Positions 50,592 to 64,000 of a DNA stretch of 64,000 bases are shown in pieces. A program made the translations under genes and the position numbers. The notes under the pieces were generated by a model, which ran no database searches, had not been told where the DNA came from, and saw only the letters and a program-made list of their open reading frames with translations. The stretch spans positions 1 to 64,000 of the forward strand of contig CAIXXM010000057.1 in assembly GCA_903923395.1 (NCBI GenBank), written 5' to 3'. Each line of letters starts with the position of its first letter. The first letter of the stretch is position 1. Source of the DNA: an uncultured Acidobacteriia bacterium (GTDB lineage: Bacteria; Acidobacteriota; Terriglobia; Bryobacterales; Bryobacteraceae).

Positions 50592-52805
50592 TTATCGCGG
50601 CACAGACAAAAGTTCGCTCGCGATGAGCGCCTGCCCCAAAGCAAGCCCGCCATCGTTGGTGGGAACGCGCTGGTGATGATAGACCGTAAAACCGGCGCTG
50701 CGGAGCGACTCCACCGTCAGACCGAGCAGGCGGAGATTCTGAAAACAGCCGCCCGAGAGGCAGACGCGCTCCAACTGGGAATGAGAACGAATTCGCTGGC
50801 AGGCTTGCAGAATCACATCAGCCATCGTGTTGTGAAATCTGCCGGCAATGACGGCTGCCGGGGTTCCGCTATGCAAGTCCACGGTGATAGCGCTGATAAC
50901 TGTTCTGAGGTCCGCCTGAAAAGGATTTCCATCGTGGATAGTAAACGGATAACGTCCCTCTGTATCCGCAGCCAGCATCTCGAGTTCGATTGCGGCCTGC
51001 CCTTCATAGGTTGTCTGCTGCCGAACATTGAGCACGGAAGCCACCGCGTCAAAGAGTCTGCCACACGAGGAGGTATCTACGCACTGCAAACCTTTGTCGA
51101 GCATCTGCCCGACGATGCGAAGATCCTTCGGTGCTGCCAGGGCGGGCGCGAAATCCACACCGGCATCGCGGCAATAAGCGAGAGCGCTGCGCCAGGGTTG
51201 TCGGACTGCGGCGTCACCACCGGCCAGCGGCACATAGCGGAGATGTCCATAGCGTTCGTAACCGGCGAAGTCAGAGACCAGGAATTCACCGCCCCAGATC
51301 CTGCCGTCCGTTCCATAGCCTGTGCCGTCCATCGCGACGCCGATGACTTTGCCTTCCAAGCCATTGTCGGCCATGCAGGCAGCAATGTGGGCATGATGGT
51401 GCTGGATGCCAATCGCGGGCAGGCCAGATTCCCGCAAGGCGAACTGCGTACTGAGATAGCGCGGGTGTAAGTCGTGCGCAACTGCCACCGGACTTACCCG
51501 GAAAAACCGCTGTAAATGGCTTAACGTTTCCCGGAAGAACTCCATGGTTTCCAGATTCTCCAAATCACCGATGTGCTGGCTGAGAATAGCGTAACGGCCC
51601 TTGGTCAAACAAAACGTATTCTTCAACTCGCCGCCACAAGCCAATATTTCTCTGGCGGGATGGTGTAATTCGATAGGTTCGGGTGCATAGCCACGGCTGC
51701 GGCGGACAGGATATGGCTTGCCTGCAAAGATCTGCATCACGGAATCATCCACACGCGTGCGGATCTCGCGATTGTGGAAGATGAAGTGGTCCGCGACATC
51801 ATGGAGCCTCAGTTCCGCTTCGGCGTTCCGGCTCACGATCGGCTCCTCGCTGAGATTGCCGCTGGTCATCACCAGAGCAGGCAGGGTTTCATCGAAGAGC
51901 AGATGATGCAACGGCGTGTAGGGCAACATCACGCCCAGTCGCGACTGGTTCGGTGCCACTGCGGGTGCGATCCGCGCTTCCGCCTTCTTGCGCAGCAAGA
52001 CGATCGGTTTCCGTGAGCCTTCAAGCAGTGCCTGTTCCGCTTCTACGATCTCACATAACTCCCGTGCCACCGCCAGATCGCGAACCATGACGGCAAATGC
52101 TTTCCCGCTCCGGCGCTTACGTTCGCGGAGTGTCTCCACGGCCCGGATGTTCGTGGCATCGCAAACCAGGTGAAAGCCACCCAACCCGCGGATGGCCAGG
52201 ATCAAGCCAGACTGCAGCAACAGCCGTATCTCAACCGGATCTTCCGAAAGCGAGGGTCCACAATCTGGACAGGCATTCGGTTCCGCATGAAAGCGCCTGT
52301 GTCCGGGGTCTTCATATTCGGCCTGGCAAGCGGGGCACATCTTGAACTCCGCCATGGTCGTCTTCGCCCGGTCATAAGGAACATCCCGAATAATGCTGTA
52401 GCGCGGACCGCAGTTCGTGCAATTTGTAAATGGATAGAGGTAGCGGCGGTTGGAGGGATCGAGAAACTCCGCCGTGCACTCTGGACAAGTTGCGATATCC
52501 GGCGGGACCAGAGAGAACTGTCCTTCGCCACCGACGCTTTCGCGAATATGAAAGGCATGTTCGCGCGTGGCAGGCAGTTCTGCGACCGATATCCGGTCAA
52601 TGCGCGCCAACGGTGGTAATTGGGATTGTAAGGCGTAAAGAAACGCCTCCACTGCTTCTCCCTCTGCCTCAATGACAACGCCGTCCGGGGAGTTCAAGAC
52701 CCAGCCGAAGATACCGAATTGCGCCGCGAGCCGGTAGACATAGGGACGGAAGCCAACACCCTGCACCACACCCTGGATTTCGATCCGCCTCCGGAGAGCG
52801 ATCAA
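50592..52805 (-). CDS. hypF: Carbamoyltransferase HypF
   Basis: 737 residues. Domains in order: acylphosphatase (QGVVQGVGFRPYVYRLA), double zinc finger (CPEC, CTNC, CPAC, CPDC), YrdC-like and the Kae1-like carbamoyltransferase with LHPRYLSTQFA and IQHHHAHIAACMADN, DGTGYGTDGRIWGGEF. HypF makes a thiocyanate on HypE for the CN ligands of the [NiFe] site. The start is a TTG that overlaps the stop of the upstream HypC-like/cNMP gene (TTGA). Confidence 0.96.
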   Translation of the reverse strand: MIALRRRIEIQGVVQGVGFRPYVYRLAAQFGIFGWVLNSPDGVVIEAEGEAVEAFLYALQSQLPPLARIDRISVAELPATREHAFHIRESVGGEGQFSLVPPDIATCPECTAEFLDPSNRRYLYPFTNCTNCGPRYSIIRDVPYDRAKTTMAEFKMCPACQAEYEDPGHRRFHAEPNACPDCGPSLSEDPVEIRLLLQSGLILAIRGLGGFHLVCDATNIRAVETLRERKRRSGKAFAVMVRDLAVARELCEIVEAEQALLEGSRKPIVLLRKKAEARIAPAVAPNQSRLGVMLPYTPLHHLLFDETLPALVMTSGNLSEEPIVSRNAEAELRLHDVADHFIFHNREIRTRVDDSVMQIFAGKPYPVRRSRGYAPEPIELHHPAREILACGGELKNTFCLTKGRYAILSQHIGDLENLETMEFFRETLSHLQRFFRVSPVAVAHDLHPRYLSTQFALRESGLPAIGIQHHHAHIAACMADNGLEGKVIGVAMDGTGYGTDGRIWGGEFLVSDFAGYERYGHLRYVPLAGGDAAVRQPWRSALAYCRDAGVDFAPALAAPKDLRIVGQMLDKGLQCVDTSSCGRLFDAVASVLNVRQQTTYEGQAAIELEMLAADTEGRYPFTIHDGNPFQADLRTVISAITVDLHSGTPAAVIAGRFHNTMADVILQACQRIRSHSQLERVCLSGGCFQNLRLLGLTVESLRSAGFTVYHHQRVPTNDGGLALGQALIASELLSVPR

Positions 52806-53470
52806 TGCAGACCAGCCAGCCTCAGGCGAACGGCATCCAGACGCCCGGTTACTAACTCCAGCAACCGCTTGGTCAAAGCGTAACCCAGTTCGTTATCCTG
52901 CTCACACAGTGCCCGCAACGGTGCGCCCGGAAAGGCCAGAGTCGCTACTCCACTGAGCGCCCGTGCCTGGAAGTGGGTGGTGGCATCACTGGTTAATGCT
53001 GACCAGCCGAGAGCGTCGCCGGTCCTCAGGATCGTGATCTGAACCGGCTGCGCCACTGTATCTTCTTCGAGGAGAATATCGCCCGCTACAATCAGATGCA
53101 AATACTTCGACTTCTCGCCGGAATGGAAGATCACGGCCCCGCTGCCGAAAAACTTCTCTTCCACCAATGGCAATAACTTGCGCAACTGGCGGCTGTCGAG
53201 TTCACTTAGGATCCGGTAAGGTCCCTGCAAGTGAGGCGCAACCGGCTCTGCTGGAATCATCTGACTTACGAAGGACTCCTCCAGCGTTTCATCCGTGCTT
53301 ACCAAATCAGTCGCAAACCCAGCATGAAAGCGAACCTTGTTCCCAATCGCCGCCTCCGGCACGAGGTTCAGATAGACTGGCCTGCGCCGCCCATGAAATT
53401 CCACGATGCCAATACGGTCTGAGCCTTCGTCGTAAATCTCCACTACCTTGCCGGTTAGTGACACACTCAT
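52802..53470 (-). CDS. HypC-like domain fused to a cyclic-nucleotide-binding-type domain
   Basis: 222 residues from the ATG at 53470, which overlaps the protease stop by four bases. The first 55 residues align clearly with the true HypC of the same operon (GKVVEI, VEFHGRRR, VPEAAIGNKV, HAGFA), but the essential Cys2 is Ser and Pro6 is Thr. From about residue 85 a CRP-like sensor domain follows (LDSRQLRKLLPLVEEKFFG, SKYLHLIVAGDILLEED, ILRTGDALGWSALT), with no DNA-binding helix-turn-helix after it. It therefore cannot carry the Fe(CN)2CO unit through Cys2. It may act as a ligand-controlled scaffold or brake in maturation. Sequence-level call is firm; role is inference. Confidence 0.85.
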   Translation of the reverse strand: MSVSLTGKVVEIYDEGSDRIGIVEFHGRRRPVYLNLVPEAAIGNKVRFHAGFATDLVSTDETLEESFVSQMIPAEPVAPHLQGPYRILSELDSRQLRKLLPLVEEKFFGSGAVIFHSGEKSKYLHLIVAGDILLEEDTVAQPVQITILRTGDALGWSALTSDATTHFQARALSGVATLAFPGAPLRALCEQDNELGYALTKRLLELVTGRLDAVRLRLAGLH

Positions 53471-53937
53471 ACGGAACACTCCTGCCAGATTTCGAGTTGT
53501 TGCAGCACCACTTTTACCATGGGTTGCAAGGCGGCCTGCACGGCCGGGGTAAGATCCACGCCCCATTCGGTCGATTCCGGTTGCACGCCGATGACGATCA
53601 TCTCCGGCGGCATCCCGCCAATCAGTTCAGACGCAATCATCAGGTCTGCGAAACCCAATTGGTGGACACTGGCTTTTCCCGGTATGCCGCGCAGCGCCTT
53701 GCCCTCAAACCGCATCACGGTACCAGGCTTTTCACCGGTATCTACAGCGTCTATCACGATGAGGCGCTCCGCGCCGGAAAGATGCGGCAGCAGAGACAAG
53801 CCCTGCGTGCCGCCATCCACCAGCGAAACTCCTGCTGGAACGCGGGGATCAAGTTCCATGGCGCGGATGGCATGGACCCCCACCCCATCATCACTGTGCA
53901 CCAAATTCCCGAGCCCCAGCACCACCGTACCGTTCAC
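53467..53937 (-). CDS. hyaD: [NiFe] hydrogenase maturation protease
   Basis: 156 residues, GTG start in a 4-base overlap with hyaC. The family signatures are VLGLGNLVHSDDGVGVHAI (nickel-sensing Glu/Asp region), DGGTQGLSLLPHL and IDAVDTGEKPGTV, plus the His in VHQLGFADLM. It cuts the C-terminal peptide off the large subunit after nickel insertion; the substrate (DPCLACAVH/VIDAQG) is encoded two genes upstream. Confidence 0.95.
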   Translation of the reverse strand: MNGTVVLGLGNLVHSDDGVGVHAIRAMELDPRVPAGVSLVDGGTQGLSLLPHLSGAERLIVIDAVDTGEKPGTVMRFEGKALRGIPGKASVHQLGFADLMIASELIGGMPPEMIVIGVQPESTEWGVDLTPAVQAALQPMVKVVLQQLEIWQECSV

Positions 53938-54689
53938 TTGGCTACTCCTCTTCCCCTGGAAGTAAGAATCGCCTTGTGGTCATCTTCCTCCAACTCATCC
54001 ACCGGAATGACTTTGTACCCGGTAAAGATACTATCCACCAGACCACGACGCTCTGTTCGCGATACCAACAGGCAGATATGGACATGGAAGATACCGAAAC
54101 TGATGAAGACAAACATCAGCAGGTAATGTGTCAACCGCATGTTCTGCACTCCCATGAACCTCGGAATCCAACTCACGAAGATACCCAGCACCGGATTGTG
54201 CAACAGCCAGTTGAACATCGCGAGTCCGGTAAGAATCTCTACCAGGACCAGACAGTAGAGGCCGAGATACATCATCGCTGCCAGTGCATTGTGACCAACC
54301 TTGGCAATCGGCGTCGGGCGCAGGAATAGATAGAAGCGGATCATCTGCCACATCTCCTGCCAGGCATCCTTGCGCAGAGGCAGCATGGCACGCCACCGGA
54401 CCCATCTGTCGCCGGCAAACAGCAAGTAGAACCGCAGCAGAAACAACGCCAGAAGGACCATCCCACAAACCTCATGGACGAAACGGAAGGTACCCATCAA
54501 GAACGGAGTCCTGGTCTGTCCCACGATGTAGGGGTCATGAATGTAATAGCCGGTGAGAGACATGAGGGCGATCGAAATCACCAGCCCCCAATGCACCAGG
54601 CGCAAAGGATACTGCCAGACATACACCGCGATCGCGGTGCCGACACGCATGCGGGCATGACGGTCGATCTTCATCGTTGCGGATTGCAT
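53934..54689 (-). CDS. hyaC: Hydrogenase b-type cytochrome subunit
   Basis: 251 residues from the ATG at 54689 with AAGGAG upstream. Four membrane segments, with heme-ligating histidines in LRLVHWGLVISIALMSLTG, FVHEVCGMVLLALF and RLTHYLLMFVFISFGIFHVH. It anchors the small/large subunit pair to the inner membrane and passes electrons to quinone. Signature TGYYIHDPYIV is typical of HyaC/HupC. Confidence 0.94.
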   Translation of the reverse strand: MQSATMKIDRHARMRVGTAIAVYVWQYPLRLVHWGLVISIALMSLTGYYIHDPYIVGQTRTPFLMGTFRFVHEVCGMVLLALFLLRFYLLFAGDRWVRWRAMLPLRKDAWQEMWQMIRFYLFLRPTPIAKVGHNALAAMMYLGLYCLVLVEILTGLAMFNWLLHNPVLGIFVSWIPRFMGVQNMRLTHYLLMFVFISFGIFHVHICLLVSRTERRGLVDSIFTGYKVIPVDELEEDDHKAILTSRGRGVAK

Positions 54690-54702
54690 GGCGTCTCCTT
54701 GT

Positions 54703-56415
54703 TTAGCTGATTCTTGGAATCGTGTATTCCCGGCCCTGCGCGTCAATCACATGCACGGCACAGGCCAGACAGGGGTCGAAGGAATGGATGGTGCGCATGA
54801 TTTCAAGAGGCCGTTTCGGGTCAGCCACAGGTGTGTTGAGCAGCGAGGCATCATAGGCACCTTTCAAGCCCTGTGCATCCCTTGGCCCGGCATTCCACGT
54901 GGTGGGCACAACGGCCTGGTAATTCACAATCTTCTTGTTGCCAATCTCAATCCAGTGGCCAAGCGCGCCGCGCGGAGCTTCATGCCAGCCATAACCATGC
55001 GCCGATGCGGGCCAGGAATCCGGTTCCCAACGGACGGGATTAAAGATCGCGACCTTGCCGTGCGCCAGGTTGGAACCGAGTTGATCCACCCAGCCCTCCA
55101 TCTCAGCGGCCATGATGTTACTTTCCAGCGCCCGCGCAGCAATCCGTCCCAGCGTGGAGAACAACACGGAGGGCCCGGCATTCAGGGCTTTCAACGCAGC
55201 ATTCACAGATGCTCTGATCTTGGGCGAACCGGCGGCATAGCCAACGACCATGCGCGCCAGCGGACCCACTTCCATGGGCTTGCCGTCATATCGGGGAGCC
55301 TTCAGCCACGAATACTTCTTATCCACATCGAGATGCTCGAAGGGCGCTTTGGGTCCGCTGTATTTCGGATTGGTTTCCCCAACGGAGGGATGCAGTCCAT
55401 TGGTGTCTCCTCCCGAATAGTCATACCAGCTATGGGCCACGGATTCCGTAATCTTGGAGGGATCCACGGGAAGCACCTTCGAAATATCCCGCCCCATGAC
55501 GATGCCGCGCGGGAACAGAAACGTCTTCGGATCATTCTGGTTGCCGGACGAGTAATCGCCGTAGCAGAGGAAGTTACCCAGACCTTCGCCGCGTCCAAAC
55601 CAATCCTTGTAGTAAGGGGCCACGGCCATCACATCGGGAATATAGTAATCCTCGACGAACTTCTTGGCACCGCGCACCAGATCGCGAATGAAGTCAATGC
55701 GCTCAGGAGTAATTGTGGCCGCCGGTTCATTGGGGTCCATGGCAGTCGCCATCCCGCCCACCAGGAAGGATTGCGGGTGGGGATTCTTGCCTCCCAGTAC
55801 CGCATGAATCCGGATGAAGTCCTTCTGCCACTCCAGAGCTTCCAGATAGTGAGCTACCGCGAGCAGATTCACTTCAGGCGGCAACACATAGGCCGGATGT
55901 CCCCAGTAACCACTGGCGAAGAGACTCAATTGTCCGCTGTCGACCACTCCCTGCACCCGCTTTTGAATGCCGCGGAAGTAAGTGGCGCTGGACTTTTCAG
56001 CGTTCGAGATCGACTGCGCGATCTGCGATGTTTTGACGGGGTCCGCTTTGAGGGCCGAGGCTACGTCCACCCAGTCCAGCGCATGCAGATGATAGAAATG
56101 CACCACGTGATCGTGCAGCATCTGCGCGCCGGCAATGAGATTGCGGATGATCCGTGCATTCTCCGGCACCTCGATCTGCAGGGCATCTTCCACAGCCCTA
56201 ACACTGGCAATGGCGTGCACCATGGTGCAAACACCGCAGATGCGCTGCGCCCAGATCCACGCTTCCCTGGGATCGCGCCCTTTCAGGATCATCTCAATGC
56301 CGCGGAACATTGTGCCGGAACTCCAGGCATCAGTCAGCTTGCCGCCCTCAAGATTTGCTTCTATGCGTAAGTGGCCTTCAATGCGGCTTACGGGATCGAC
56401 AACCATGCGCGCCAT
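54703..56415 (-). CDS. hyaB: [NiFe] hydrogenase large subunit, group 1
   Basis: 570 residues. N-terminal nickel motif QRICGVCTMVHAIASVRAVED and C-terminal DPCLACAVH complete the four cysteines of the Ni-Fe centre. The opening SRIEGHLRIEANLEGGKL and GTMFRGIEMILKGRDPREAW mark a group 1 membrane-bound uptake enzyme. The 15-residue tail after the terminal His (VIDAQGREYTIPRIS) is the peptide removed by HyaD. It is translated right behind hyaA (gap of one base). Confidence 0.97.
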   Translation of the reverse strand: MARMVVDPVSRIEGHLRIEANLEGGKLTDAWSSGTMFRGIEMILKGRDPREAWIWAQRICGVCTMVHAIASVRAVEDALQIEVPENARIIRNLIAGAQMLHDHVVHFYHLHALDWVDVASALKADPVKTSQIAQSISNAEKSSATYFRGIQKRVQGVVDSGQLSLFASGYWGHPAYVLPPEVNLLAVAHYLEALEWQKDFIRIHAVLGGKNPHPQSFLVGGMATAMDPNEPAATITPERIDFIRDLVRGAKKFVEDYYIPDVMAVAPYYKDWFGRGEGLGNFLCYGDYSSGNQNDPKTFLFPRGIVMGRDISKVLPVDPSKITESVAHSWYDYSGGDTNGLHPSVGETNPKYSGPKAPFEHLDVDKKYSWLKAPRYDGKPMEVGPLARMVVGYAAGSPKIRASVNAALKALNAGPSVLFSTLGRIAARALESNIMAAEMEGWVDQLGSNLAHGKVAIFNPVRWEPDSWPASAHGYGWHEAPRGALGHWIEIGNKKIVNYQAVVPTTWNAGPRDAQGLKGAYDASLLNTPVADPKRPLEIMRTIHSFDPCLACAVHVIDAQGREYTIPRIS

Positions 56416-56416
56416 G

Positions 56417-57520
56417 TCAGTTTTCCTTTCCTGTTTGCGAAACGTTGGCCGAAGTTACCGGCGCGGGTTGGATCATCTGGATCAGCCCATGGACTGTTAC
56501 ACCGGCCAGCACGGCACCAGTAAGTCCCAGGCCGATGTTTGTGGCCGAGGTTTCCACACCAAACCCCGGAACATTTGGCAGCCGCTGATAGAAGGGCGAC
56601 ATGTTATCCCAGAAACGCGGCGAAGCGCAGGCGATGCAGCCATGACCCGCGCGAATCGGCCAACTGGTGTGGTCATTCCATTGCGCCACCGGACAATTGA
56701 AGGTCGCTTCCGGCCCCTTGCAACCCATCTTGTAAAGACACCAGCCTTTGCGATGTCCATCATCGCCCCACTCCGTCACGAAGCGGCCGGCATCGTAATG
56801 CGCCCTGCGCTCACATTGGTCATGAATCACGCGGCCATAAGCGAAGAGCGGGCGGTTGTACTGATCCAGGTCCGGCAGATCATGGAAGGTAAGATAGTGA
56901 ACCAGCACTGCCGCCGTGTTCACCGGATTATGCGGGCAACCGGCCATGTTAATCACCTTGATGCCGGGAACAGCCTCATGGACACCGAGAGCTCCGGTCG
57001 GATTGGGTTTCGCCCGCACCAGACCACCATCAAAGGCGCAGGCACCCACGGCAATCGTGGCGGCTGCATTGCTGCAAACCTGCGTCGCGATGTCGAGCGC
57101 CGTGCGGCCCCCTATTGTGCAGTACATGCCGTCTTCCGACATGGGAATCGACCCTTCCACAACGACCAGATACTTGCCCTTTTCCTCTTTCGCCACGCGG
57201 TCCAGAATCTTATTCGCCGAATCACCGGAACCGGCCATGATGACTTCGTGGTACTCCCACGAAAGCAAGTCCAGCACCACGTCTGCCACGCTGGGATGGC
57301 TCGAACGAAGCATGGATTCTGAGCACCCTGTACAGTCCTGAAACTGTAGCCAGACCAGAATAGGTTTCTTGGCTTGTGTGACTGCCGCCATGGTCTTGGC
57401 GAGATAGCGGTCCGGCAGAGCCAGGGTACCTAGCATCGCGGAACAGAACTTTACTAACTGGCGGCGCGTCACGCCACGGCTTGCAAGCGCTTCGCCAACA
57501 CTCGTGTCAGGTCTTAACAT
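56417..57520 (-). CDS. hyaA: [NiFe] hydrogenase small subunit with Tat signal
   Basis: 367 residues. Twin-arginine signal VTRRQLVKFCSAMLG, then the proximal cluster motif DCTGCSESML, VGACAF, distal-cluster HDQCERRAHYDAG and GWCLYKMGCKGP / CPVAQWN / GHGCIACASPRFWD. A C-terminal membrane helix (NIGLGLTGAVLAGVTVHGLI) anchors it. The proximal motif is C-T-G-C, so the extra cysteine of O2-tolerant group 1d enzymes (C-T-C-C) is absent. Start overlaps hypB by seven bases. Confidence 0.96.
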   Translation of the reverse strand: MLRPDTSVGEALASRGVTRRQLVKFCSAMLGTLALPDRYLAKTMAAVTQAKKPILVWLQFQDCTGCSESMLRSSHPSVADVVLDLLSWEYHEVIMAGSGDSANKILDRVAKEEKGKYLVVVEGSIPMSEDGMYCTIGGRTALDIATQVCSNAAATIAVGACAFDGGLVRAKPNPTGALGVHEAVPGIKVINMAGCPHNPVNTAAVLVHYLTFHDLPDLDQYNRPLFAYGRVIHDQCERRAHYDAGRFVTEWGDDGHRKGWCLYKMGCKGPEATFNCPVAQWNDHTSWPIRAGHGCIACASPRFWDNMSPFYQRLPNVPGFGVETSATNIGLGLTGAVLAGVTVHGLIQMIQPAPVTSANVSQTGKEN

Positions 57521-58215
57521 GCCATCACCTTCCTTACTTCTGCTATCGCCGAATCACAACACTCACGTTTGGTCTCCATCCGGGAAGCCAGCCACGCGAG
57601 CCACTGCCCGAAACCGGCACCCGTCGTGGCGGAGGTCTCGACAATCTCAATCAGAGGGTTGACCGCTCTGGCGTATTGCTTCGCCATTTCCAACTGGAAT
57701 GGCACATAAGGAAGCAGGTCTGTCTTGGTCAGAATCATCAACTCGGCTTTGCGGAAAATGCCGGGATATTTGAGGGGCTTATCTTCGCCTTCCGCAACGC
57801 TGAGGATGACAACCTTGCCATCTTCCCCAAGGTCATAACTGGTGGGGCAAACCAGGTTGCCGATATTCTCAATGAGAAGTAAGTCGAGTTCTGCAAGCGG
57901 CCAATCCGCCACATGCTTTTCGACCATGCGCGCATCCAGATGGCAGGCGCCGCCTGTACAGATCTGCTTCACCGGGAAACCGTATTTCGCCAGACGGATC
58001 GCATCATTCTCGGTCTGGATATCGCCGGTAAGCAGAGCGATCCGCAAATCATGCGGGAGCAATTCCAAGGTCTTTTCGAGGAACGCGGTCTTACCCGCAC
58101 CCGGTGAACCGATGAAGTTCAGGGACAATGTCCCGCTTTCCATCAGGCCTTCACGCAACCTTGCGGCCACGCGGTCATTTTCAGAGAGAACTCTACCTTC
58201 CAACGCCACACGCAT
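57514..58215 (-). CDS. hypB: Hydrogenase nickel-insertion GTPase HypB
   Basis: 233 residues. P-loop NFIGSPGAGKTAFLEKT, LTGDIQTENDAIRLA, metal site CTGGACHLDARM, then LLLIENIGNLVCP and TKTDLLPY. The N-terminal CxxCGC and His-rich stretches of some HypB are absent, so there is no nickel store. The interplay with HypA is probably altered because the HypA partner lacks its zinc domain. Confidence 0.95.
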   Translation of the reverse strand: MRVALEGRVLSENDRVAARLREGLMESGTLSLNFIGSPGAGKTAFLEKTLELLPHDLRIALLTGDIQTENDAIRLAKYGFPVKQICTGGACHLDARMVEKHVADWPLAELDLLLIENIGNLVCPTSYDLGEDGKVVILSVAEGEDKPLKYPGIFRKAELMILTKTDLLPYVPFQLEMAKQYARAVNPLIEIVETSATTGAGFGQWLAWLASRMETKRECCDSAIAEVRKVMAC

Positions 58216-58483: not shown

Positions 58484-59545
58484 TCAACAAATCCTCGGTA
58501 ACTGGTCCCCGGGCAACAAATCCACAATTCGCGTGGAACCGAATGATGTACGAACCGTCACCATTCCCGGCGCTCCATCCTTGACCACGCCAATTACGGC
58601 GGCTTCGTGTCCCAGTGGATGATTGCGGATGGCTGCGAGCACATACTCAGCACTCTCCGGCGACACAATTGCAGTCAATTTGCCCTCATTGGCGACATAC
58701 AACGGATCCAGCCCCAAGAGTTCACAGGCGCCGCGCACTTCCTCATGCACAGGAATCCGCCGCTCCTCGATTTCGATACTGACGCCTGATTGTGCCGCGA
58801 TTTCATTGAGGGCGCTCGACAACCCGCCACGTGTGGGGTCCCGCATGCACCTGATCCCGCTGCTGACATCCAGCATCGCGGCCACCATGCCGTGCAGTGC
58901 GGCGGAGTCACTTACAATGGCAGTTTCAAAATCCAGGCCTTCCCGGCTGGCAAGAATCGCCGTGCCATGATCGCCAATGGACCCGCTCAGAATGACCACA
59001 TCTCCCGGCTTCGCGCGGCATGCCGAAAGGGCGACACCGGGGCGAACCAGGCCGATGCCAGTGGTGTTGATATAAACACCGTCGCCTTTACCGCGTTCAA
59101 CGACCTTGGTATCTCCGGTGACGATGCTTACTCCCGCAGCCGCAGCAGCATCGGCCATGGAAGTGGCTATCTTCTGCAGTAGCGCCAGCGGAAAACCTTC
59201 TTCGAGAATGAAGCCTGCGCTGAGAAACAGTGGTGTGGCCCCGCCCATGGCGAGATCATTGACCGTGCCATGCACCGCCAGCGATCCGATGTTCCCTCCC
59301 GGGAAGAACAGCGGCTTTACCACAAAGGAATCCGTGGTGAATGCGATGTTTGAGCCGCCTATCTTGAGCAGCGCCTGGTCATCGAGCCGGTTCAGTGTGG
59401 GATTACTGAAGAGTGGCAGGAACACATCGCGCAACAGGTTGGCACTTAGCCACCCCCCGCCGCCATGGCCGAGGACGATCTTATCGTGCGAAGTTACCGG
59501 CGCGGGGCACGAGAATGCAAATGGATCCAGGAGCGTCTCAGACAT
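58484..59545 (-). CDS. hypE: Hydrogenase maturation dehydratase HypE
   Basis: 353 residues from the ATG at 59545, which overlaps hypD by eight bases. AIR-synthase fold: [25 protein letters not shown]-type [34 protein letters not shown] and [15 protein letters not shown]. It ends with the required C-terminal PRIC whose Cys takes the carbamoyl group and is dehydrated to thiocyanate. Confidence 0.96.
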
Positions 59546-60626
59546 AGCGTTTGTACTGGTGCCAGGCGGCACAAGCTCCTTCCGAGGAAACCATGGGCGC
59601 TCCAAGCGGCGTCATGGGTGTACAGCGTTTGCCAAACGCCGGGCAATCGACTGGCTTTTGCAGGCCTTGCAGGACGAGAGCACTGATGCATTCGCGCGGT
59701 TCCTGCACACTGAGTGGGGTAAGGCCAAAGACCCGCTCGGCGTTATGTGCCGCATACTCTTCGCGAAGTTCCAGACCGCTGTTGGGAATCTCACCGATGC
59801 CCCGCCACTTACGGTCCGCAACACGGAAAACATCCCGAAGCATGTGCTGTGCGGCGCGGTTGCCTTCGCGGTCCAGATAGCGTGAATATTGGTTCTCCAC
59901 GACAGACCGGCCTTCTTCCAGCTGCGCCACCAGTAAGAGAATGGCTTCCAGCAGGTCAACCGGTTCGAAGCCTCCCACGACGATGGGCACATGAAACTCA
60001 CTGGCCAGAACTTCATACTCCCGGAAGCCCATGATGGTGCACACGTGGCCGGGAGCAATGAAGCCTTGCACCCTGCTGACTGGCGATTCAAGGATCATCC
60101 GCATGGCGGGCGGCACCAGAACATGTGATGCGAGCATACTGAAGTTACTCAACCCTTCGCGCTTTGCCTGCCACACAGCCATCGCATTGGCTGGAGCCGT
60201 TGTTTCAAACCCCACGGCAAAGAACACGACTTGACGCCTTGGGTTGTCCCTGGCAATCTTCAGCGCATCCATGGGCGAGTAAACAATGCGTACATTAGCG
60301 CCGTTCGCTCTGGCTGCAAACAGGTCAGATTGCGAGCCCGGCACGCGTAACATGTCGCCGTAGGAGGTCAAGATGACATTCGGCAGACCAGCGATCAGGA
60401 CTGCCTGATCGAGTATCTCCAGCGGAGTAACACAAACAGGACAACCTGGACCGTGCACTAACTCCACTTCCTTCGGCAAAAGGTCGCCAATGCCATAGCG
60501 CATCAGCGTATGCGTCTGGCCGCCACATACTTCCATTAGGACACGGGGCTTGGTCACCAGCCGTGCGATGCGGTCCACCAGGGCATACGCGATTTGTGGG
60601 TCGCGGTACTCGTCGATATACTTCAC
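59538..60626 (-). CDS. hypD: Hydrogenase Fe-cyanide assembly scaffold HypD
   Basis: 362 residues. Motifs [55 protein letters not shown] and [14 protein letters not shown] are those of HypD, which binds HypC and builds Fe(CN)2CO; a C-terminal [4Fe-4S] Cys set (CPAFGKRC...[11 protein letters not shown]) is present. GTG start overlaps the hypC stop (GTGA). Confidence 0.96.
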
Positions 60627-62603: not shown

Positions 62604-63626
62604 TCAGGCTGGCTGCTGCTGGGTCATGCAATGCAGTGTTCCCAGGCCCCAAACCAGTTCCGTGCAGTTGATGCCAGTTACTACTCTGTCTGGAAAACAC
62701 TCCTGCAGGATATTCAGCGCCACGCGGTCATTCGGATCATTGAACGTGGGCACCAACACCATCCTGTTCGCGACATAAAAATTTGCGTAACTGGCAGGCA
62801 GACGGACACCATCGAAGACCAGAGGCGCGGGCATGGGAAGCTTCACGGCCTTCACGGGGAAAGTCTTGAGAATCTCCCAATTCTCCCGCAAAGGTTCATA
62901 ATTCACTTCGCCTGGATCATCCTCCTGGACAATCACCACCGTCTCCGCATCTGTGAAACGTGCCAGGTCATCCACGTGCCCGTGCGTATCATCTCCCGCG
63001 ATGCCATTCCGCAACCACAACACGCGGTCGAGGCCCAGATAATCCGACATTCTCTGCTCGACCTCGCCGCGGGATAACTCCGGATTTCGCGCTTGAACGG
63101 GGCTCAGCAGACACTCCTCCGTGGTCAGCACCAGGCCCTGCCCGTTGACATCGATACTGCCACCCTCCAGCACCATGCCGGGACGCCAGACTGGCTTCTG
63201 GACCAGATCCGGGATCAATAACCCAGCCGCTTCATCCCTCTGGTGGTTCTCATATTTCGCCCAGCCGTTGAACTGCCATTTCGCGGCAGCCACACTGCCG
63301 GCGGCGTTGCGAATGAAGAGTGGCGCAAAGTCCCTGGCCCAAACACGGTCGGTTTCAACACGGAAGAACTCCACATTCTCCAGCATGCCGCCGCACATCT
63401 GCAGGACTTCCTGCGCCGAAGCCTCGGCCTCTTCATTTTGGATTAGAATCCGGACCTTCTCCACCTGGGAAAGCTTGCGCACAATTTCGCCATACACCCA
63501 GGGGATGGGCGCAAATCGGCCCGGCCAGTCTTCTTCGTTATGAGGCCAGGCAATCCAGGTGGCTTCATGCGGTTCCCACTCGGCGGGCATCCGGTATCCG
63601 AGTTGCTTTGGAGATGCGGTGCTCAC
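62604..63626 (-). CDS. aguA: Agmatine deiminase (peptidyl-arginine deiminase family)
   Basis: 340 residues. AEWEPHEATWIAWPHNEEDW, TDRVWARDFAPLF, GGSIDVNGQGLVLTTEECL and GDDTHGHVDDLARF carry the catalytic Asp/Glu/His. The nucleophilic Cys is in the closing LHCMTQQQ. It turns agmatine into N-carbamoylputrescine. GTG start overlaps the aguB stop (GTGA); the pair completes agmatine-to-putrescine. Confidence 0.93.
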   Translation of the reverse strand: MSTASPKQLGYRMPAEWEPHEATWIAWPHNEEDWPGRFAPIPWVYGEIVRKLSQVEKVRILIQNEEAEASAQEVLQMCGGMLENVEFFRVETDRVWARDFAPLFIRNAAGSVAAAKWQFNGWAKYENHQRDEAAGLLIPDLVQKPVWRPGMVLEGGSIDVNGQGLVLTTEECLLSPVQARNPELSRGEVEQRMSDYLGLDRVLWLRNGIAGDDTHGHVDDLARFTDAETVVIVQEDDPGEVNYEPLRENWEILKTFPVKAVKLPMPAPLVFDGVRLPASYANFYVANRMVLVPTFNDPNDRVALNILQECFPDRVVTGINCTELVWGLGTLHCMTQQQPA

Positions 63627-64000
63627 GCGAGGAACCGGTTCACAATCGGACCGTAAGCGTCAATGCGGCGGTCGCGGAAGAAGGGCCAGTTGCGGCGGAC
63701 CTCCTCCATTTGCGCGGGGTCGCACTCCACCACCAGAATCTCCTCCTGATCGTGCGACGCTTCCGCCAAAACACGTCCAAAGGGATCCGAAACAAACGAT
63801 GCGCCCCAGAACTCCAAGCCACGTTCCGCCGGACCTTCGAAGCCCACGCGGTTTACTGCCGCAACGTAGATTCCATTCGCGATGGCATGTGAGCGCTGCA
63901 TGGTCTTCCAGGCATCATGCTGGGCGGTGCCGAATTCAGCCTTCTCCGCCGGATGCCAGCCGATCGCAGTGGGATAAAACAGAATGTTCGCCCCCTGCAT
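63623..64000 (-). CDS. aguB: N-carbamoylputrescine amidase, 3' part (cut by window edge)
   Basis: 125 residues of the C-terminal half of a nitrilase-family enzyme: ILFYPTAIGWHPAE, QHDAWKTMQRSHAIANGIYV, FWGASFVSDPFGRVLAEAS and NWPFFRDRRIDAYGP. The N-terminal half, with the catalytic Glu, Lys and Cys, lies beyond base 64000. It hydrolyses N-carbamoylputrescine to putrescine, CO2 and ammonia. Confidence 0.92.
   Translation of the reverse strand: MQGANILFYPTAIGWHPAEKAEFGTAQHDAWKTMQRSHAIANGIYVAAVNRVGFEGPAERGLEFWGASFVSDPFGRVLAEASHDQEEILVVECDPAQMEEVRRNWPFFRDRRIDAYGPIVNRFLA

Follow-up and report, generated by a model that had tools for sequence, protein, structure and literature searches.

A HypC-like protein without Cys2 fused to a cyclic-nucleotide-binding domain in the [NiFe] hydrogenase operon of a Bryobacteraceae bacterium

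The window analysed here, a 64,000-nucleotide (nt) stretch of contig CAIXXM010000057.1 from an uncultured bacterium of the family Bryobacteraceae (genome G000), contains an eleven-gene [NiFe] hydrogenase operon in the order HypC-D-E-A-B-HyaA-B-C-D-X-HypF, with all genes on the minus strand. The gene designated X encodes a HypC-like domain in which Cys2 is replaced by serine, followed in the same reading frame by a cyclic-nucleotide-binding (CNB) domain. The description of X as a Cys2-less HypC joined to a CRP-type sensor had been put forward in an initial annotation of the DNA and was confirmed; the interpretation offered with it was partly supported. Both halves of X are known families, and they occur as two adjacent genes in the same operon slot of genome G593, from another genus. 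Judged from its sequence, X hints at an undescribed control of [NiFe] hydrogenase assembly, by a module that is rare and a fusion found in one genome. At somewhat less than even chances, X is tentatively read as a cytosolic, maturation-stage adaptor of a group-1 hydrogenase, consisting of a HypC dock without iron and a sensor.

The features of X are as follows, with coordinates given as positions in the window.

52802–53470, minus strand: X, gene of the 222-residue HypC-like/CNB fusion; intact open reading frame (ORF), stop codon 52802–52804
53261–53470, minus strand: HypC-like domain, X residues 1–70; PF01455 at residues 3–64, 48% identity to the G593 HypC-like protein over residues 1–62
53465–53467, minus strand: Ser2 codon, Cys2 in other HypC proteins, from the alignment
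53324–53326, minus strand: His49 in the HAGFA motif; its aligned counterpart in E. coli HypC and HybG is a histidine required for HypD binding (PMC9002611)
52805–53260, minus strand: CNB domain of the 'GWS' type, X residues 71–222, from Pfam; Met71-Ile-Pro matches VIPEEL, the N-terminus of the G593 CNB protein if its gene starts at the assumed GTG
53003–53005, minus strand: Trp156 of LGWS; tryptophan in 59 of 61 family members

Domain composition of X and its split counterpart

The N-terminal half of X was matched by HupF_HypC (PF01455) over residues 3–64 (E 4.4e-10, 40 bits, cut-off 28.5). Smith-Waterman alignment of residues 1–70 with the operon's own HypC gave a score of 83, against a mean of 23.1 (standard deviation 4.3) and a maximum of 46 in 2000 shuffles. 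In this alignment Ser2 of X falls exactly on Cys2 of HypC and Thr6 on Pro6, and the sequence His49-Ala-Gly-Phe-Ala is retained. Cys2 is present in 43 of the 45 distinct HypC proteins of the fetched loci (made unique by residues 21–70), the two exceptions being X and the HypC-like protein of G593 (HypC'), both with Ser2. C2 of HypC is described as essential (PMC12134894), and a histidine near position 50 aids the binding of HypC and HybG to HypD (PMC9002611). Lacking Cys2, the HypC-like domain should, from its sequence, be unable to retain Fe(CN)2CO. Nor is X a substitute for the genuine HypC, since the operon also has a gene for a Cys2-bearing HypC. A predicted structure of residues 1–75 had a mean predicted local distance difference test score (pLDDT) of 62.8, and its top Foldseek match was HypC (2z1c), a weak one (E 0.11, root-mean-square deviation 11.1); no match was obtained with this model at E <= 0.001.

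The C-terminal half was matched by cNMP_binding (PF00027) at residues 106–192 (E 4e-9, 36.7 bits, cut-off 27.5). No further Pfam family was found in X up to E = 1, so that X lacks a helix-turn-helix (HTH) domain, and the protein stops soon after the CNB domain. The gene overlaps its neighbours by four nucleotides at both ends, with ATGA common to hyaD and X, and TTGA common to X and hypF. Thus the HypC-like N-terminal domain in a hydrogenase operon, the serine in place of Cys2, the sensor domain devoid of a DNA-binding helix and the translational coupling to the protease and hypF, all proposed in the initial annotation, were borne out. The GC content at third codon positions (GC3) of X is 0.637 and that of its ten neighbours 0.627 to 0.683; a foreign insertion as the origin of X was set aside because of this resemblance.

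G593 belongs to another genus of the same family and carries the same operon (locus L107), with a HyaB 79–80% identical to that of the window. Between its hyaD and hypF lie a separate 103-residue HypC-like gene (MSFTVPG) and an adjacent, separate CNB gene. The HypC-like protein of G593 also has Ser2 and keeps HVGFA. At residue 71 X reads MIPAEP, which aligns with VIPEEL, where the G593 CNB gene is assumed to begin with a GTG codon. X looks like the product of a fusion whose two components remain distinct genes in G593. There, a genuine stop codon ends the HypC-like gene, 13 nt lie between it and the presumed GTG of the CNB gene, and HypC' has a longer tail than the corresponding part of X; the fused state is therefore not one frameshift away from the split state, and an assembly or frameshift artefact as the cause of the fusion was set aside.

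Trees pair the HypC-like parts of X and G593 (99/91), with the HypC of G597 next (95/78), and likewise pair their CNB parts (99/68), within a clade (99/92) holding proteins of G556, G462, G463 and G597. The CNB half of X is 45–57% identical to the CNB proteins of G593, G556, G462, G463 and G597. G597 has a group-1 operon in which hypC follows hyaD, and a second contig of this genome carries hypE-hypA-hypB-CNB; since the genome has both these arrangements, the two halves of X may derive from one G597-like operon. In G608 the two families are neighbours in reverse order: on C315, a contig other than that of its hyaB, a GWS-type CNB gene (L182 794–1234, minus strand) is separated by 156 bp from the hypC downstream of it, which bears Cys2, and the hypC and hypD products of this genome are 73–75% identical to those of the window.

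A match spanning both domains was found in the genome of X only, i.e. in one of 61 relatives (E <= 1e-3), one of 396 genomes of the phylum (E <= 1e-6), one of 237 of the family (E <= 1e-8) and one of 257 of the order (E <= 1e-15). G000 is part of these overlapping sets; the searches started from X, and fusions in which the HypC part has diverged very far could escape them. HypC itself (PF01455) is present in at least 189 of the 396 phylum genomes. A contig scan by exact short peptides, from which the genome of X may be absent, gave one HypC-only locus, and a plasmid search returned CNB matches only, none of 14 records having one place that covered 80% of X. The same two-domain architecture, suggested at the outset as something to look for beside hydrogenase genes of other genomes, was thus not found elsewhere as a fusion; as adjacent, separate halves it was found in G593.

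The CNB half and its family

The cassette region of X reads LGWS...HFQARA, and Trp156 stands in the column that we take to be the phosphate-cassette glutamate of CRP and canonical cNMP domains (cassette Glu/Arg). This column holds Trp in 59 of 61 family members; HoxI of Cupriavidus necator (C. necator) has Glu. Because of the prevalence of Trp at this column, cAMP or cGMP is unlikely as a ligand and CRP-like cyclic-nucleotide sensing was set aside. Of the proposed cyclic-nucleotide-binding-type sensor, the CNB fold stood by profile and ordinary cyclic-nucleotide sensing did not. Among PDB entries, profile searches pick up this fold, with 3mdp as the best match that spans most of the domain. 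X shares this fold, by profile, with CRP/FNR regulators and differs from them in the absence of an HTH and in the Trp at the phosphate-cassette Glu.

The 61 CNB proteins are distinct proteins from fetched loci only (many listed matches came without a locus), picked by similarity to X and not at random; duplicates and fragments of <110 residues were dropped, two multidomain proteins of >230 residues (L025, L079) were removed from a set of 63, and some loci are cut by contig ends. Judged by their neighbours, 39 belong to group 3b-type operons, and another eight, among them X and the G593 protein, lie next to hydrogenase or hyp genes of other kinds. For the remaining 14, nothing recognised as a hydrogenase gene lies within the 1.5-kb flanks that were fetched; one of these, in G556, has a hydrogenase gene set about 2 kb away. 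Homologs common outside any hydrogenase context, which the initial annotation had named as evidence against its view, were thus found in part for the CNB half and not for the HypC half. CNB genes of the same family apart from recognised hydrogenase genes were noted at L035 and L037–L041. To our knowledge, the role of the GWS-type family in the many group 3b operons has not been tested.

The typical group 3b gene order is hyhB-CNB-hyhG-hyhS, which is also annotated on a Paraburkholderia plasmid, and the CNB gene of G463 lies between HyhB- and HyhG-type genes. The Hyh and Hox labels in the neighbour counts derive from two loci labelled by eye, and the profile backing for the 3b set consists of ShyA/B/C/D- and HydA/B/G/D-type matches, all under equivalog cut-offs. 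In L112, the only locus profile-checked for the 3b gene set, sulfhydrogenase subunits are the best or nearly the best match of each of the four subunits, again below equivalog cut-offs. The label 'Hox' is a loose one, as the large subunit called HoxH has VhuA as its best match. The group 3b CNB gene has been named HoxI (PMC12319191) and is listed in Rhodococcus equi (PMC13332983). X has the same domain without an HTH as the group 3b 'HoxI' (PMC12319191) and shares a clade with these proteins in the tree. In contrast, group 3b CNB proteins are encoded by stand-alone genes of NAD(P)-linked enzymes, while the CNB domain of X is fused to a HypC-like domain and its partner is a group-1 enzyme with a twin-arginine motif. 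Indeed, the partner of X is not a cytosolic NAD(P)-linked group 3 enzyme, the sole large subunit found in G000 being of the group 1 type.

In C. necator, HoxI is reported to form a homodimer on the diaphorase and to provide an NADPH activation site (PMC3702609), and it is lost from HoxFU during purification (PMC3189943). Like X, it is a CNB protein without an HTH; its gene comes after hoxH and the protease gene, with hypA-hypB-hypF downstream. The least probable of three rival explanations for X builds on this likeness. It holds that the CNB half gives NADPH-dependent activation of the enzyme while the HypC-like half merely docks on the large subunit; the activation site on the HoxI homodimer (PMC3702609), the position of both genes after the protease and the frequency of the CNB family in hydrogenase operons speak for such a role. 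However, HoxI sits on the diaphorase HoxFU, which is absent from the operon of X, the mature HyaAB enzyme should be exported, and the CNB half of X has Trp where HoxI has Glu and is only 20% identical to it (106 aligned residues; E 0.002, rank 54 among 58 matched family members). The similarity is so weak that the function of HoxI is not to be transferred to X. Forty-five members of the CNB set reach E < 1e-4 against C. necator HoxI, at 19–33% identity, and the best 60 of the 89 PDB matches of HoxI include no hydrogenase-derived structure. A pyridine nucleotide as the ligand of X is a guess by analogy with HoxI.

Partner enzyme and a possible role in maturation

The remaining genes of the operon are as follows.

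50592–52805, minus strand: HypF carbamoyltransferase; TIGR00143 796 bits, TTG start overlapping the stop of X
53467–53937, minus strand: HyaD-type maturation protease; TIGR00072 147.8 bits, ATGA overlap with X
53934–54746, minus strand: HyaC b-type cytochrome subunit; TIGR02125
54703–56415, minus strand: HyaB large subunit; profile match
56417–57520, minus strand: HyaA small subunit; TIGR00391, twin-arginine motif TRRQLVKF near the N-terminus
57514–58215, minus strand: HypB; TIGR00073
58232–58480, minus strand: HypA, short, 82 residues; PF01155 50.1 bits, model positions 1–66 of 112
58484–59605, minus strand: HypE; TIGR02124
59538–60626, minus strand: HypD; TIGR00075
60623–60874, minus strand: genuine HypC with Cys2 (MCLAVPG...); PF01455 86.4 bits

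The genome of X is 98.46% complete and has one [NiFe] large subunit by PF00374, which is this HyaB. Its nearest solved relatives, 3myr and hydrogenase-1 first, are presumably group-1 large subunits, and TRRQLVKF of HyaA is taken to be the consensus motif of twin-arginine translocation (Tat). X shows no twin-arginine motif. With a single large subunit found, a Tat motif on HyaA and none on X, we infer that a cytosolic X would meet the hydrogenase only before export and would therefore act at the maturation stage, which is where the initial annotation had placed it; this is the principal argument for the adaptor. G593 (82% complete) has one PF00374 large subunit and a partial match with weak hydrogenase similarity, which is probably complex I.

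Several observations favour a maturation-stage adaptor. Both halves come from families tied to hydrogenase loci; G593 keeps both genes unfused in the hyaD-hypF slot, again with Ser2 and with HVGFA intact; and CNB genes lie upstream of hypC in G608 and after hypB in G597. In the proposed mechanism the HypC-like domain would dock on HypD or pre-HyaB via the family pattern and the His49/GFA motif, and the CNB domain would sense a small ligand, possibly a pyridine nucleotide and hardly cAMP. While attached to HypD, or to pre-HyaB in the way HupF attaches to HupL, X could hold or gate the unfinished subunit until ligand or redox state permits the true HypC to hand over Fe(CN)2CO. These binding partners, the ligand and the direction of control are what we infer for X. 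A ligand-gated checkpoint, in which an iron-blind HypC docked on HypD or on the HyaB precursor carries a HoxI-like sensor that decides the completion of an exported uptake hydrogenase, is a doubtful possibility.

Compared with HypC and HybG (PF01455), X is alike in its profile match above the Pfam cut-off, the histidine near position 50, GFA and the hyp operon. It differs in Ser2, the CNB fusion, a shortened C-terminal region, the presence of a normal HypC in the same operon and a score under the TIGR00074 cut-off. By analogy, the nearest precedent for an adaptor role is HupF: this HypC paralog, which has an additional domain at its C-terminus, binds HupL and shields it at higher O2 (PMC3534401). 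As with HupF/HoxL of aerobic uptake hydrogenases, X is a second HypC-family gene in its operon with an added C-terminal domain; however, the extra domain of HupF is not described as CNB, and HupF goes with HupK. No HupK/HoxV-like ORF was recognised among the operon genes and PF00374 gives HyaB only in the genome, no HupK model having been used. In the excerpts of the literature on HypC, HoxI and CNB proteins, in a search that did not target control of maturation as such, no HypC-CNB fusion, no Cys2-less HypC and no hydrogenase whose assembly is switched by a sensor on a HypC-type protein was found.

If the adaptor reading is true, a sensor carried on a HypC-type dock would switch the assembly of a [NiFe] hydrogenase; with a ligand-gated checkpoint of this kind, CNB domains of the family would act on hydrogenase assembly besides finished cytosolic hydrogenases. 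The natural fusion, with its split counterpart in another genus, ties a HypC-type dock to a GWS-family CNB domain, and X, being small, lends itself to studying what the GWS family senses and binds and whether members of the HypC family have iron-free roles.

The conserved docking motif also suits the first of the remaining rivals, the most plausible of the three though itself unlikely, in which X is a decoy or brake. Here the Cys2-less domain would compete with the true HypC for HypD via His49 and stop Fe(CN)2CO synthesis in one ligand state of the CNB domain. The histidine and GFA are kept and Cys2 is lost in both genera, and the histidine near position 50 is a HypD contact (PMC9002611); however, a pure decoy would need no coupling to the protease and hypF, and HypC paralogs bind large-subunit precursors too.

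A number of results weigh against a maturation-stage adaptor. The narrower NCBIfam HypC model TIGR00074 gave 27.6 bits with X and 41.3 bits with the G593 HypC-like protein, both below the cut-off of 48, and X lacks a C-terminal stretch found in the latter. The full-length model of X, predicted from a three-row alignment, was poor (pLDDT 38.8). The distant relationship to C. necator HoxI given above counts in the same direction, as does the fact that HupF keeps Cys2. The branch of the HypC-like part is 2.67 long (median 0.31), which makes its exact tree position unsure and would equally result from relaxed constraint; the HypC of G606, which bears Cys2, has a branch of 2.94. Finally, the HypC'/CNB module follows hyaD in two of 12 readable window-type operons (G000 and G593), and it is lacking in G014, G017 and G018, whose HyaB is 84% identical to that of the window; as these relatives do without it, the module is not required.

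The second rival, rather improbable, takes X for a relic, the HypC-like half being a decaying duplicated hypC from a second operon and the CNB half alone, or nothing, being functional. Loss of Cys2, the long branch, the shortened C-terminal region, the patchy presence and the scores of X and G593 under the NCBIfam cut-off agree with decay. A relic would, however, hardly be expected to keep open reading frames in two genera with HyaB about 20% different, translational coupling at both ends, a GC3 like its neighbours and H-x-GFA; and the HypC-like gene of G593 is complete and separate though nothing obvious forces its retention.

Gene content of related operons

A HyaB at least 73% identical to that of the window was found in 13 of the 237 family genomes, the genome of X included; G608 stands outside the 12 readable operons because its contig ends before hyaD. 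The module was not found after hyaD in G014, G017, G018, G013, G606, G607, G032, G476, G012 and G550. In G014 and G017 hyaD runs into hypF. In G018 the two are about 300 bp apart, with no homologous ORF between them (L122 10665–10968), at a place where other genomes have either no gap or the HypC'/CNB module. In G013 and G606 hyaD is followed by hypF, and Hox-like genes are inserted upstream. This insert, labelled by eye as a Hox-like NAD-linked set with a second protease, lies between hyaC and hyaD (L129 1984–8434 in G013, L131 7133–13582 in G606), and the group-1 operons of both genomes are thus composite two-hydrogenase operons. An origin of X as the remnant of an inserted NAD-linked hydrogenase was not supported, no CNB gene being seen in the G013 and G606 insert. 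Downstream of hyaD in G607, on the same strand, is a PIN-domain-like ORF (VapC-like by eye; L130 7196–7585, minus strand).

The short HypA is characteristic of this operon type. Only 1–66 of the 112 Pfam positions are matched, TIGR00100 gives 37.2 bits against a cut-off of 88.1, and similar short HypA genes occur at L107 14416–14673 and L122 5535–5777; the region of the model without a match presumably carries the zinc site. Universal stress protein genes were seen near hydrogenase operons or CNB genes (L107 5560–6426, L112 13993–14823, L146 and L147). At 62604–64000 of the window, on the minus strand, adjacent overlapping ORFs resemble, by eye, an agmatine deiminase and a nitrilase-type amidase.

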